Origin: Bradyrhizobium erythrophlei
GTDB taxonomy: Bacteria > Pseudomonadota > Alphaproteobacteria > Rhizobiales > Xanthobacteraceae
Reading direction: 5' to 3'
Length of the DNA stretch: 64,000 nucleotides
Assembly (NCBI RefSeq): GCF_900129505.1
Contig: NZ_LT670818.1
Location: forward strand, 6,481,001-6,545,000
Below the pieces are notes generated by a model. It did no database searches, was not told where the DNA came from, and was given only the letters and a program-made list of their open reading frames with translations. Made by a program: the position numbers and the translations under genes. This document shows positions 2,482 through 13,014 of the stretch, piece by piece (the stretch's first letter is position 1; the number at the start of each line of letters is the position of its first letter).

Positions 2482-3567
2482 CTAGGCCGAACGCTCCCGG
2501 AATGCGCGGCGTTGCCCGTCCCGTCTTGCCGCAACGGCGTCGGCGAGCAGGGTCAGTGCCGGCACCGTGGTTTCCCAGTCGATGCAGCCATCGGTAATGC
2601 TCTGCCCGTAGGTCAGCGGCGTGCCCGGCACCACATCCTGGCGGCCCGCGACCAGATTGCTCTCGATCATGACGCCCATGATGCGCTGCTCGCCGGCCGA
2701 TATCTGGCGGGCGATATCGGCCACCACCAGCGGTTGGTTCTCGGGCTTCTTGCCGCTGTTGGCGTGACTGGCATCGATCATGAGCCGCTGGATCACGCCT
2801 GAACGGGCGAGTTCGGCCGCGGCGGCATCAACGCTCGAATGGTCATAGTTCGGCTGGCCGCCGCCGCGCAGAATGATGTGGCAATCCGCGTTGCCGGTCG
2901 TCGCCGCGATCGCCGAGCGTCCGCCCTTGGTCACCGCCATGAAATGGTGGGCATGCGATGCCGACTTCACTGCATCGGCGGCGATGCGCACGTTGCCGTC
3001 GGTCCCGTTCTTGAAGCCGACCGGGCTGGACAGTCCGGAAGCGAGCTCACGATGAATCTGGCTCTCGGTCGTGCGCGCGCCGATCGCCGCCCATGTCACC
3101 AGATCGGCGATGTATTGCGGCGTCGTGAGATCGAGAAACTCGGTGCCGGCCGGCAGACCGAGATTGTTCACGGCCGACAGAACGTTCCGGGCGAGCCGCA
3201 GTCCCTTGTTGATGTTGAAGCTGCCGTCGAGGTCTGGATCGTTGATCAGGCCCTTCCATCCCACCGTGGTGCGCGGTTTCTCGAAATAGACGCGCATGAC
3301 GATCTCGAGCCGGTCGGCCAGCCGTTCACGCATGGTGGCGAGGCGTTCGGCGTACGCCACCGCCGCGACGGGATCGTGGACCGAACAGGGACCGACGATG
3401 ACGAGGAGGCGATCATCGGTTCCGTTGAGGATGGATTTGATGGCGTTACGCGCCGCCAAGACGACGCGCGTTGCGGTCAGGGTACGCGGGATCTCGCGCA
3501 TCACCTCTTCCGGAGTATTGAGTTCTTTTATTTCCTGGATTCGAAGGTCGTCGGTCGTACTCAACAC
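2482..3567 (-). CDS. aroG: 3-deoxy-7-phosphoheptulonate (DAHP) synthase, class I
   Basis: Condenses phosphoenolpyruvate and erythrose 4-phosphate to DAHP, the first step of the shikimate route to Phe, Tyr and Trp. The 361-residue length fits class I (AroF/G/H). Motifs in order: GPCSVHD, KPRTTVGWKG, GTEFLD, IGARTTESQ, SSPVGFKNGTDG and the C-terminal IDASHANSGK metal/phosphate region. I chose the GTG at 3567 because CAGGAG sits 8 bases upstream; a longer in-frame ORF runs back through the terminator and has no such site. A terminator hairpin and an aromatic-rich leader ORF lie just upstream, pointing to transcription attenuation. Which feedback isozyme this is cannot be told here; the symbol is a family-level choice. 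Confidence 0.93.
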   Translation of the reverse strand: MLSTTDDLRIQEIKELNTPEEVMREIPRTLTATRVVLAARNAIKSILNGTDDRLLVIVGPCSVHDPVAAVAYAERLATMRERLADRLEIVMRVYFEKPRTTVGWKGLINDPDLDGSFNINKGLRLARNVLSAVNNLGLPAGTEFLDLTTPQYIADLVTWAAIGARTTESQIHRELASGLSSPVGFKNGTDGNVRIAADAVKSASHAHHFMAVTKGGRSAIAATTGNADCHIILRGGGQPNYDHSSVDAAAAELARSGVIQRLMIDASHANSGKKPENQPLVVADIARQISAGEQRIMGVMIESNLVAGRQDVVPGTPLTYGQSITDGCIDWETTVPALTLLADAVAARRDGQRRAFRERSA

Positions 3568-3602
3568 GGCTGTGGCTCCTGTTTTTGAGAAACCCGCCGG
3601 CC

Positions 3603-3631
3603 AAATAAAAAAGCCGCCAGGTCTGACGGCT
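3603..3631 (-). terminator. intrinsic terminator (attenuator) before DAHP synthase
   Basis: On the minus strand an 8-bp stem (AGCCGTCA pairing with TGGCGGCT, one G-U pair) with a GACC loop is followed by TTTTTTATTT. It lies between the leader ORF stop (3656) and the structural start (3567). A terminator inside the 5' leader of a biosynthetic gene is the hallmark of attenuation. Confidence 0.8.
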
Positions 3632-3655
3632 GTTCGGACTTCCTGCTGCAATTTT

Positions 3656-3736
3656 TCAGATTGAGCGCGATCCTCCCACCGCCAGCGAGCTGTCGAAGCT
3701 AAAATACCAAAAATAGCTGGTGGCGATGGTGATCAT
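3656..3736 (-). CDS. aromatic-rich leader peptide of DAHP synthase
   Basis: A 26-codon ORF whose residues 7-14 read SYFWYFSF: two Tyr, three Phe and one Trp in eight codons, the three end products of the pathway controlled by the next gene. Its stop lies 25 bases before the attenuator stem. The upstream promoter places the start point on the A of the ATG, so the ORF would be leaderless. This is the expected layout for ribosome-mediated attenuation: stalling on scarce Phe/Tyr/Trp-tRNA would favour an antiterminator. The short length means it is absent from most annotations. Confidence 0.75.
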   Translation of the reverse strand: MITIATSYFWYFSFDSSLAVGGSRSI

Positions 3737-3771
3737 GGCGGCTCTATAGCCCGATCATTCGGGCTTGTCAT
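3736..3771 (-). promoter_or_regulatory. sigma70-type promoter of the leader-DAHP synthase unit
   Basis: Minus strand: -35 ATGACA (3771-3766), 17-base spacer, -10 TATAGA (3748-3743). The expected start point, 7 bases downstream, is 3736, the first base of the leader ORF. The spacer contains the palindrome GCCCGAATGATCGGGC, which could be an operator or chance. Confidence 0.65.
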
Positions 3772-3797
3772 CCCCCAAATTGAACCATCCGGCTGGT

Positions 3798-4370
3798 TCA
3801 GGTTTTGCGTGCCGCGAGCGCCACGCCGATCAGCGAGGCGCCGCCGAACAAGAGATTGATGCCTACCAAAAGGCCGATCGCCCATTCCGCCGAGCCGGGC
3901 AGCCCGGTGATGATCATCGCCGAGATCAGGATGTCCAGGACGCCGGAGAACAGCATCCAGGTCCAGCGCTCGGACAATTCGCGGCGGTGCTCGAGCGCAT
4001 ACATGATGGTCGCGACGCCTTCGGCGAGAAAATAGGCGCCGATCACGATCGTGAGCGTCAGGACGCCCTGCGCCGGCCTGGTCAGCAGGATGAGGCCAGC
4101 GCCGATGGCGAGCACGGCCGAGAGCAGCGACCACCAGAAGCCCGGCATTTGCCGCGCCCAGAACGTCATGGCCAGTCCAGCCGCGCCCGAGATCAGAAAC
4201 ATCCAACCAAGGAAGATCGTGAAGGCTAGGCTCGCGATCAGCGGCGCAATCATCGCCGCGAGGCCGAGGACGGCGAGCAGAATGCCTTCGATCAAGAACG
4301 CCTTCCAGTGCTCGTGCACCGCGGAGCGCATTTCGGATTGCAGCCTGGTGATGTCCTGGGGAAGGGTCAT
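3798..4370 (-). CDS. HdeD family membrane protein (DUF308)
   Basis: A 190-residue inner-membrane protein with about six hydrophobic spans in pairs, typical of HdeD/DUF308 acid-resistance proteins (segments such as LAMTFWARQMPGFWW and the C-terminal NLLFGGASLIGVALAAR). I chose the ATG at 4370, which has AGGAG 7 bases upstream, over an upstream ATG. In Escherichia coli HdeD helps acid resistance at high cell density; the role here is inferred from the family only. Its stop lies inside a hairpin (3781-3800) that may end the transcript. Confidence 0.85.
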   Translation of the reverse strand: MTLPQDITRLQSEMRSAVHEHWKAFLIEGILLAVLGLAAMIAPLIASLAFTIFLGWMFLISGAAGLAMTFWARQMPGFWWSLLSAVLAIGAGLILLTRPAQGVLTLTIVIGAYFLAEGVATIMYALEHRRELSERWTWMLFSGVLDILISAMIITGLPGSAEWAIGLLVGINLLFGGASLIGVALAARKT

Positions 4371-11600: not shown

Positions 11601-12160
11601 GCGATGACGGCCGCGGCAAAGCCTAGCGAGCAGCCGCGAACCGAGTCTGGCGTGGCGTCCGGTAACGGCCGCTGCGAAGCGTAGACAGGGAGGTTGTAGG
11701 CCGGAATGAAGTGAACGGGAACATAGCCCCGAAATCGAACGTGATCGGAGTAGCCGACCCTGTCGCTCAAAGGGGAAGGCGGAATCGCAGGCCGCGACAA
11801 CGCGAGCGGTCTGAGGTGCTCCCGGGGTTCGGTACCGCCAGCATGCAACCAAAGGGAGCAACGTGAACAAGGGAGATCCATCCGGTTCAGGCGCAAGCCT
11901 GTAGGACCTGCCAAGCCGAAGTGGTGAGAAGGGTCTGATGACCGGGTGGAAGTCAGACTGACTGATAGTACTCTGCGGTCGGGAGAGCCGGCTACTTGGG
12001 GAAGCGGTCAGCGGTAGTTGAATTGTTCTTGGGCAACATGGGCTCCATTCAACGGGAGTTACGGCCTTCTACTCAGTGAGAAGATCAGCTGACCATGGAA
12101 ACGAAACTTGAACAGATAGCAGTGAAAGCTGTGAACCAACTGCCGAAGAGCGTGGTGCGG
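11601..12160 (+). mobile_element. group II intron remnant B (5' part and start of maturase)
   Basis: About 490 bases of sequence resembling the 5' ribozyme domains of rhizobial RmInt1-like introns lead to an ATG at 12,095. It encodes METKLEQIAVKA, the typical start of RmInt1-type maturases (usually METKLERIAVKA). The frame then leaves the family after about a dozen codons, so the maturase has been lost by deletion. Recognition is by memory of family sequence; ends are approximate. Confidence 0.5.
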
Positions 12161-13014
12161 GAAATCCGCACGCCACGTTCTGTGGGAGCGTGCAGCGAAG
12201 CTAGCTGCCATTGCAGCGGGTGGAAGTCCCGCCGACATAGGAGTCCAATCGATGTCGTAGTTATATCCAGCGACGGTAAGGGTGACCGCTCCGTCGAAAG
12301 CCTGGACGTAAAAGCCTCCTGTGGCTGGAAGCGTGTTCCGGTCAGATCCGTCCGGGGAGGCGAGCAACCTGTCAGGCTGTAGCAGTTGTGAACCGTGCAG
12401 CCCCGAAATGAACGCCTACGTGAAACGGATTGTGGAGATATCGGGAGTGTCGAGCCAGTGTTCCCATGGCGAAGACCATGTCGGCATCGTGAATTTGGAC
12501 GATACGATGTTCGAACTCCCCGGGGTCGGAGAGGGCGGCATGACAGGAAGCAATGTGCAGCGAAAGCTCGGAACCACTCGTGGGTCGCCTAGGCGCTCCC
12601 GCACAGCGAAGACATCGCGTATAAGCTGCCGTGCAGTGAAATCGCGATGTGCCCACAAGTGGGGCGGATGGGGTCGATTAAGTGATGACGGCTCGAGACA
12701 ACATAACTCGAGCAAGAGCGAGGACCCCTGGGGAAGTGGTAATCCCACTTCATGGCGGTGCACGATCGAGTCGACGACCCGACACTGTGCGGGATAACTG
12801 TTGGACCACGAGGTGTACGAAGGGTGGATGCAAACTGGCCAACGCGCCGCGGATGTCGGGAGCAGACTTAAGCTCGCGTGGAAGCCGGGAAGGCCCCATC
12901 TGAAAGCCAGCCTTCCAGCCGTATCGAGGAAAACCCGCCGTACGGAATGATAGGGGGGATCGAGGAAACGTCGGCATCATGCGAAGCCCGGTCCGCGCCT
13001 CGATCCTACCCGAC
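12161..13014 (+). mobile_element. group II intron remnant C with domains V and VI
   Basis: A further stretch of intron-like sequence without an intact ORF ends in a 34-base domain-V-like hairpin (12,916-12,949; AGC triad, GAAA loop). A domain-VI stem follows, in which GATCGAGG pairs with CCTCGATC, and the 3' end CCTACCCGAC is typical of bacterial group II introns. It may be the 3' end of remnant B or of a third intron. No reverse transcriptase domain is present between 11.3 and 13.0 kb, so the ribozyme could only move with help in trans. Confidence 0.5.

Follow-up and report, generated by a model that had tools for sequence, protein, structure and literature searches.

A probable aromatic leader-peptide attenuator upstream of class I DAHP synthase genes in Proteobacteria

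In Bradyrhizobium erythrophlei, a class I DAHP synthase gene is preceded by a short open reading frame (ORF) with a run of aromatic codons, by an intrinsic terminator, and by an alternative pairing that competes with this terminator and shows covariation across related leaders, and this arrangement is conserved and linked to DAHP synthase genes in other Proteobacteria (Table 1; positions are those of the window, i.e., the whole 64-kb stretch of DNA analyzed). We consider it highly likely that this leader acts on the class I DAHP synthase gene by ribosome-mediated transcription attenuation, very probably turning the enzyme off when aromatic amino acids are plentiful. DAHP synthase gates the synthesis of aromatic amino acids, and its isoenzymes in Escherichia coli are described as repressed by the TyrR and TrpR proteins (PMC5343134, PMC11802643). 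Here, one short RNA could integrate all three aromatic products without a regulator protein, and editing a single hairpin could free aromatic producers from leader control.

Table 1. Elements of the DAHP synthase leader locus in the window.
Feature	Position	Strand	Support
-35 box ATGACA	3766..3771	minus	67/70 distinct alphaproteobacterial leaders have TGACA or TTGAC 30-40 nt ahead of their start; identity 0.89
-10 box TATAGA	3743..3748	minus	6 nt from the leader ATG at 3736; identity 0.80
Leader ORF, 26 codons, MITIATSYFWYFSFDSSLAVGGSRSI	3656..3736	minus	
Control codons 8-14 (Tyr Phe Trp Tyr Phe Ser Phe)	3695..3715	minus	
Region 1 (codons 3-7), predicted to pair with region 2 if free of ribosome	3716..3730	minus	folds; duplex against shuffles p 0.01 in the window
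Region 2, CTGGCGGTGG, within the ORF, with a core that recurs in the terminator 3' arm	3676..3685	minus	
Putative small hairpin round the stop codon (GCTCAAT / ATTG-AGC)	3645..3666	minus	fold; ORF tail 99% identical in relatives
Region 3, terminator 5' arm AGCCGTCA plus a G used in 2:3 pairing	3623..3631	minus	
Region 4, terminator 3' arm TGGCGGCT plus T-run	3607..3619	minus	
Shine-Dalgarno AGGAG of the DAHP synthase gene	3576..3580	minus	
Class I DAHP synthase (aroFGH family), GTG start, 361 aa	2482..3567	minus	TIGR00034, PF00793

A sequence-only reading of this DNA had described a promoter, a leader ORF encoding SYFWYFSF, and a stem-loop terminator ahead of an aroG-type gene, and these elements were recovered on the minus strand. 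ATGACA and TATAGA are separated by a 17-nt spacer and followed by six bases and the ATG that opens the 26-codon ORF (3736-3656). Between this ORF and the DAHP synthase gene lies the terminator AGCCGTCA-GACC-TGGCGGCT, a stem-loop of eight pairs with a loop of four (3631-3612) followed by a T-run (3611-3607). The gene product scored 510 bits against the aroFGH family TIGR00034 (cut-off 173) and also matched PF00793, which makes it a class I DAHP synthase, but its score against the AroG-specific NF006723 (525) is below the cut-off of 568, so that the AroG label, like any AroF/G/H subtype, is tentative. The leader ORF was alone among the window's 897 ORFs of 10-60 codons in having six aromatic residues in nine. 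The locus thus combines features expected of a ribosome-mediated attenuator, namely a short ORF with a run of end-product codons and an intrinsic terminator placed between this ORF and a gene of the same pathway.

The sequence-only reading had suggested an alignment of upstream regions across relatives as a check, and in 35 Bradyrhizobium loci, some of which represent the same species present in two collections, the promoter boxes, leader, and terminator were all kept. Mean identity to the window was 0.89 and 0.80 for the two boxes vs 0.51 for the spacer between them, 0.87-1.00 for the segments of the leader ORF, 0.86 for the terminator 5' arm, and 0.99 for the 3' arm with its T-run. These leader and terminator values exceed the identity at third codon positions of the DAHP synthase gene (0.60 in 23 loci of equal length), for which first and second codon positions reached 0.88 and 0.91. 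The leader tail GGAGGATCGCGCTCAATC (leader nt 61-78, window 3659-3676) was 99% identical across the 35 loci, and the aromatic run on which the earlier proposal had been staked was itself conserved among relatives.

Beyond Bradyrhizobium, a scan of genome contigs carrying the enzyme provided at least 80 named DAHP synthase loci. An aromatic ORF followed by a perfect hairpin and a T-run, as the detection script demands, was found upstream of the enzyme gene at 56 of the 80 listed loci, with the wrong ORF picked in one of them (L017). These 56 belong to alpha-, beta-, and gammaproteobacteria and include Bradyrhizobium, Mesorhizobium, Devosia, Leisingera, relatives of Burkholderia, Massilia, Bordetella, Xanthomonas, Dyella, and Rhodanobacter. 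The 24 script misses among loci L001-L080 included three (L027, L028, and L044) for which a leader was recognized on reading or by a later script, L027 having an altered form, as well as loci from Vibrio, Methylotenera, Thauera, and Thiocapsa at which no such leader was seen. Separately, at a locus from a contig labelled Anaerolineae (L040), an aromatic ORF (MSRYFSFFSWYGYF...) and a long hairpin precede the DAHP synthase gene, with no T-run accepted by the script.

We aligned 44 non-redundant leaders, leaving out L017, and built a covariance model from them. In the source genome, the only full-length match was the leader itself (100 bits), and the next match was partial (23 bits). Across 385 class-level genomes, 14 reached at least 44 bits, with the next match at 37 bits, and a protein search for DAHP synthase (E 1e-60) returned the identical 14 genomes; the enzyme gene was directly downstream of the match in 13 of these, and the contig ended in the 14th. 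With the enzyme in 14 of the 385 genomes and a leader match in all 14, the leader-controlled DAHP synthase thus appears in this class as a patchy second isoenzyme. Across 398 phylum-level genomes, the model gave 47 matches of at least 43.9 bits, and for 46 of these, G661 and G780 among them, the coordinates place a class I DAHP synthase gene immediately downstream. The 47th (L220, G786:C1:3143100-3145300) precedes a chorismate mutase/prephenate dehydratase-DAHP synthase fusion. The DAHP synthase part of this fusion, in a stretch cut at the locus end, is of another type, with NF006421 and TIGR01361 as best matches. Among weaker matches, those in G623 and G769 also precede DAHP synthase by coordinates and others, at 37-41 bits, precede pheS and pheA; at some, such as the one in G536 (39 bits), no aromatic ORF was seen, and these weaker matches are not all real. 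A class I DAHP synthase was detected (E 1e-60) in 225 phylum-level genomes, roughly four fifths of which had no adjoining model match at E 1e-5, which indicates that the leader belongs to part of the DAHP synthase family, under filters that are strict in this and all searches over more than 40 genomes and with a model that missed an aromatic ORF beside the enzyme gene in G640.

A DAHP synthase tree of 104 rows contains a clade with the Alphaproteobacteria and Xanthomonadales in which every one of the 46 rows carries a leader, and the leader label required 8 changes on the tree vs 23.4 in shuffles. This label was set by hand, from reading or from a model match, at L027, L044, L082, L126, L146, and L152, which amount to five loci in the tree (L126 and L152 are one locus), including L082, L126, and L146 in the 46-row clade. 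A leader was detected by script at 142 of a total of 174 DAHP synthase loci, a set which is not an unbiased sample because it is redundant and was partly picked by model matches.

In the mechanism that we propose, transcription would begin with the first base of the leader ATG, yielding a leaderless RNA whose 26-codon ORF would be translated during synthesis. When charged tRNA-Phe, tRNA-Tyr, and tRNA-Trp are present, the ribosome would pass region 2 and reach the stop codon, regions 3 and 4 would pair, and transcription would end after ~130 nt. When one of the three tRNAs is short, the ribosome would stall in the aromatic codons 8-12 and 14, the ends of which lie 11-29 nt before the region 2 core. 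Region 2 (CTGGCGG) would then capture region 3 (CCGYCAG) ahead of region 4 synthesis, preventing formation of the terminator, and DAHP synthase would be transcribed.

The alternative pairing at the center of this mechanism, between the leader codon region and the terminator stem, had also been suggested as a check by the sequence-only reading, and it was found here between regions 2 and 3, with covariation. Across the 44 leaders, each position of the GGCGG core of region 2 is invariant or at least 90% conserved. For the terminator (3:4) helix, 95.0% of alignment cells were paired and 25 were double-changed, vs 8.4 in shuffles, with none of 500 shuffles as high. For the 2:3 helix, 79.8% of cells were paired, vs at most 55.2% with the partner slid, and 17 were double-changed, vs 6.5 in shuffles, again with none of 500 as high; in two other measures the helix did not stand out, namely how many pairs have a double change (170 of 500 shuffles) and how many further pair types occur (68 of 500). 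Relatedness among sequences can also raise such scores above those of shuffles in the absence of structure. One example of the pairing is CCGGCGG with CCGCCGG (L060). The locus therefore also presents an antiterminator that competes for the terminator 5' arm and displays compensatory changes, as would be expected for an attenuator.

The 2:3 duplex outperformed shuffled strands at p 0.05 in 37 of the 44 leaders, and with a ribosome on the last of the aromatic codons at which region 2 stays free, and region 4 absent, its probability exceeded 0.5 in 41. With the RNA free or a ribosome at the stop codon, the 3:4 helix formed (probability >0.5) in all 44. When the whole RNA was present and the ribosome stalled, 2:3 prevailed over 3:4 in only four leaders, and the probabilities in the window leader were 0.01 and 0.98, respectively. 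Since the terminator wins in 40 of the 44 stalled leaders at full length, the switch would have to be kinetic, taking place during RNA synthesis; attenuators usually decide while the RNA is being made. The 1:2 duplex is less general: the window reaches p 0.01, but only 20 of the 44 leaders reach p 0.05, and foreign region 1 strands paired as well as the native one in a median of 42% of cases. In cross-pairing of own vs foreign strands, the own pairing exceeded the mean of the others in 32 of 44 leaders for 2:3 and in 29 for 1:2, a test of low power because the GGCGG core is common to the leaders.

Next, we considered how the leader would be transcribed and translated. An automatic scan returned no promoter at the leader locus, because it demands a T at position 6 which TATAGA does not provide, and the promoter assignment is based instead on the conservation of the two boxes. 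A TA-box was recognized 5-9 nt ahead of the start codon in 68 of 70 distinct alphaproteobacterial leaders, under a rule (TA plus any four bases) that is looser than the one used for the -35 element. A Shine-Dalgarno-like motif was detected for one of these 70 leaders and for one of 57 distinct beta- and gammaproteobacterial leaders (2/127 in all), while such a motif was found within 30 nt of 64 of 86 DAHP synthase genes at the same loci, used as a control. Promoter geometry predicts that the transcript starts at the leader's own ATG (3736), which is likely. The leaderless start proposed in the sequence-only reading is thus backed by geometry in 67-68 of the 70 alphaproteobacterial leaders and by the lack of a Shine-Dalgarno-like motif in 69, with the start itself being a prediction. 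A -10-like box is located ~6-10 nt from the leader start in Xanthomonadales, Bordetella, and some others, and 22-39 nt from it in many Burkholderia and Oxalobacteraceae, whose RNAs would thus begin with a short 5' stretch lacking a Shine-Dalgarno motif; in several beta- and gammaproteobacterial leaders no -10-like box was recognized upstream of the start. In Bradyrhizobium, a start-site study described 192 starts located exactly at annotated start codons, and its main text makes no mention of aroG, DAHP, attenuation, or a leader peptide (PMC4842269). The rarity of Shine-Dalgarno-like motifs lets one ask why attenuator leader peptides should be leaderless. An operator was also considered in the promoter spacer, where AGCCCGA-ATGA-TCGGGCT forms a perfect palindrome (3748-3765), and dropped given the low identity of this spacer among relatives. 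Further upstream, between a DUF308 gene and the leader promoter, a hairpin (3780-3801) has a terminator-like score on the plus strand only.

Leader peptides in front of DAHP synthase genes are known from Corynebacterium (PMC4046766, PMC11802643), and among the closest systems is aroR-aroF of C. glutamicum (Neshat et al. 2014; PMC11802643, PMC4046766), in which an aromatic leader likewise precedes the enzyme gene, with its effect ascribed to ribosome stalling. We liken the two by description, and aroR differs in being actinobacterial, with a Phe-Tyr-Phe run and expression that is reported to be enhanced by Phe limitation and unaffected by Tyr availability (PMC11802643). The uORFC-13-1 motif, described before aroF in Acholeplasma and environmental sequences, similarly combines an upstream ORF and a terminator, but has a ribosome-binding site, at least one Phe codon, and 24 representatives; the same source cites an attenuation hypothesis for E. 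coli aroF (PMC8632094). Among the weak matches of our covariance model, the leaders before pheA (L223, L225) and pheS (L222) resemble the DAHP synthase leader in being Phe/Tyr-rich and followed by a terminator, and differ from it in their target genes and in their shorter peptides with mainly Phe. These correspond to the pheL-pheA and pheM-pheST attenuators. A Phe leader sought before pheA in the source genome yielded a weak candidate only. The same genome has a leader before trpE(G), MNTVVRNPRLWWRTS (L239, G000:C1:314325-316424, minus strand), with two Trp codons and a different target; 7 nt separate the end of its promoter, identified by eye as TTGACG-17-TGTTTT with a poor -10, from the ATG, and this leader thus appears to be leaderless as well.

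At gathering score, Rfam 15 contained no leader family matching the window or loci L007, L010, L021, L031, and L061, and a permissive search of window positions 3300-4000 (E up to 5) gave four matches and no leader family. These four (AgvB, CRISPR-DR28, Rubella_3, and RNAI) were far below thresholds and judged to be chance. We found no report of this element in Proteobacteria in the openly accessible literature that was searched. While DAHP synthase leader peptides as such are known, a proteobacterial, three-amino-acid, Shine-Dalgarno-less family of them looks like a new form, and the attraction of the element is its breadth, its three-amino-acid run, and its consistent absence of a ribosome-binding site.

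Several other explanations were weighed against attenuation by all three aromatic amino acids. Intergenic regions often contain hairpins that resemble terminators, and a terminator scan found two in a 400-nt stretch of the locus vs 0.4 in shuffles, so that the hairpin might be merely a terminator or stabilizing stem next to an aromatic ORF that arose by chance. This is barely credible, however, as it is contradicted by the conservation of the aromatic run in three classes, by the 2:3 pairing, and by the co-occurrence with DAHP synthase, and it is on this same evidence that the attenuation postulated in the sequence-only reading is upheld. A more substantial alternative is that the leader does attenuate but responds in the cell to Phe alone, or to Phe and Tyr, the Trp codon being a passenger and Trp acting through its own trpE leader. 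Among 100 distinct peptides from the 174 DAHP synthase loci, selected for at least four aromatic residues in nine, the nine-residue run had a mean aromatic content of 5.95; Phe and Tyr were present in all 100, and Trp in 72, with about one Trp residue each on average where kept. In one relative (G336), the run is reduced to Phe-Tyr. The 28 runs that have lost Trp, the response of C. glutamicum aroR to Phe and not to Tyr, and the separate Trp leader of the source genome would all fit a Phe-centered control, while the retention of Trp in most of the peptides and in the run of every Bradyrhizobium leader listed argues against it, and we regard it as possible yet unlikely. A response to all three amino acids, as claimed in the sequence-only reading, is plausible from the codon content, with the missing Trp in some peptides and the Tyr-insensitivity of aroR as points against it.

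The remaining alternative concerns an additional function, in which the terminated ~130-nt leader RNA or its peptide would have a role in trans, as reported for rnTrpL/peTrpL of Sinorhizobium. The trpL leader of S. meliloti is described as leaderless, with a small ORF at the RNA 5' end and an attenuator, as predicted here, but it differs in being specific to Trp, in its target trpE(G), and in the trans activity reported for it (PMC7298713, PMC10117765). The resemblance in leaderless geometry would speak for a role in trans, as would the tail of the ORF after region 2, which is more conserved than first and second codon positions of the enzyme gene; this conservation may, however, be explained by RNA pairing alone, through a GAUC that would pair with the start region and through the hairpin round the stop codon. 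We consider such a role distinctly improbable, and action in trans, an analogy with rnTrpL, is unsupported. The broadest reading would be that a single attenuator senses all three aromatics at shikimate entry through an obligatory Shine-Dalgarno-less translation (leaderless in Alphaproteobacteria) across three proteobacterial classes, and so reads leaderless initiation capacity along with tRNA charging, with the ~130-nt RNA maybe a regulator itself; taken as a whole, this seems to us rather improbable.

A class II DAHP synthase is also encoded in the source genome, as in 45 of the 46 genomes searched (source genome included). Its upstream stretch in the source genome contained no ORF with four aromatic residues in nine, and the two DAHP synthases of this one genome, the class I with a leader and the class II without an aromatic ORF seen, form a natural contrast. 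At the class II locus (L189, G000:C1:5851216-5853400), a terminator-like hairpin with a T-run was noticed by eye within ~10 bases of the predicted mRNA start, and three other Bradyrhizobium (L186-L188) have a hairpin of different sequence at that position. Elsewhere in the window, the group II intron family RF02005 gave two matches on the plus strand (11602-12535).
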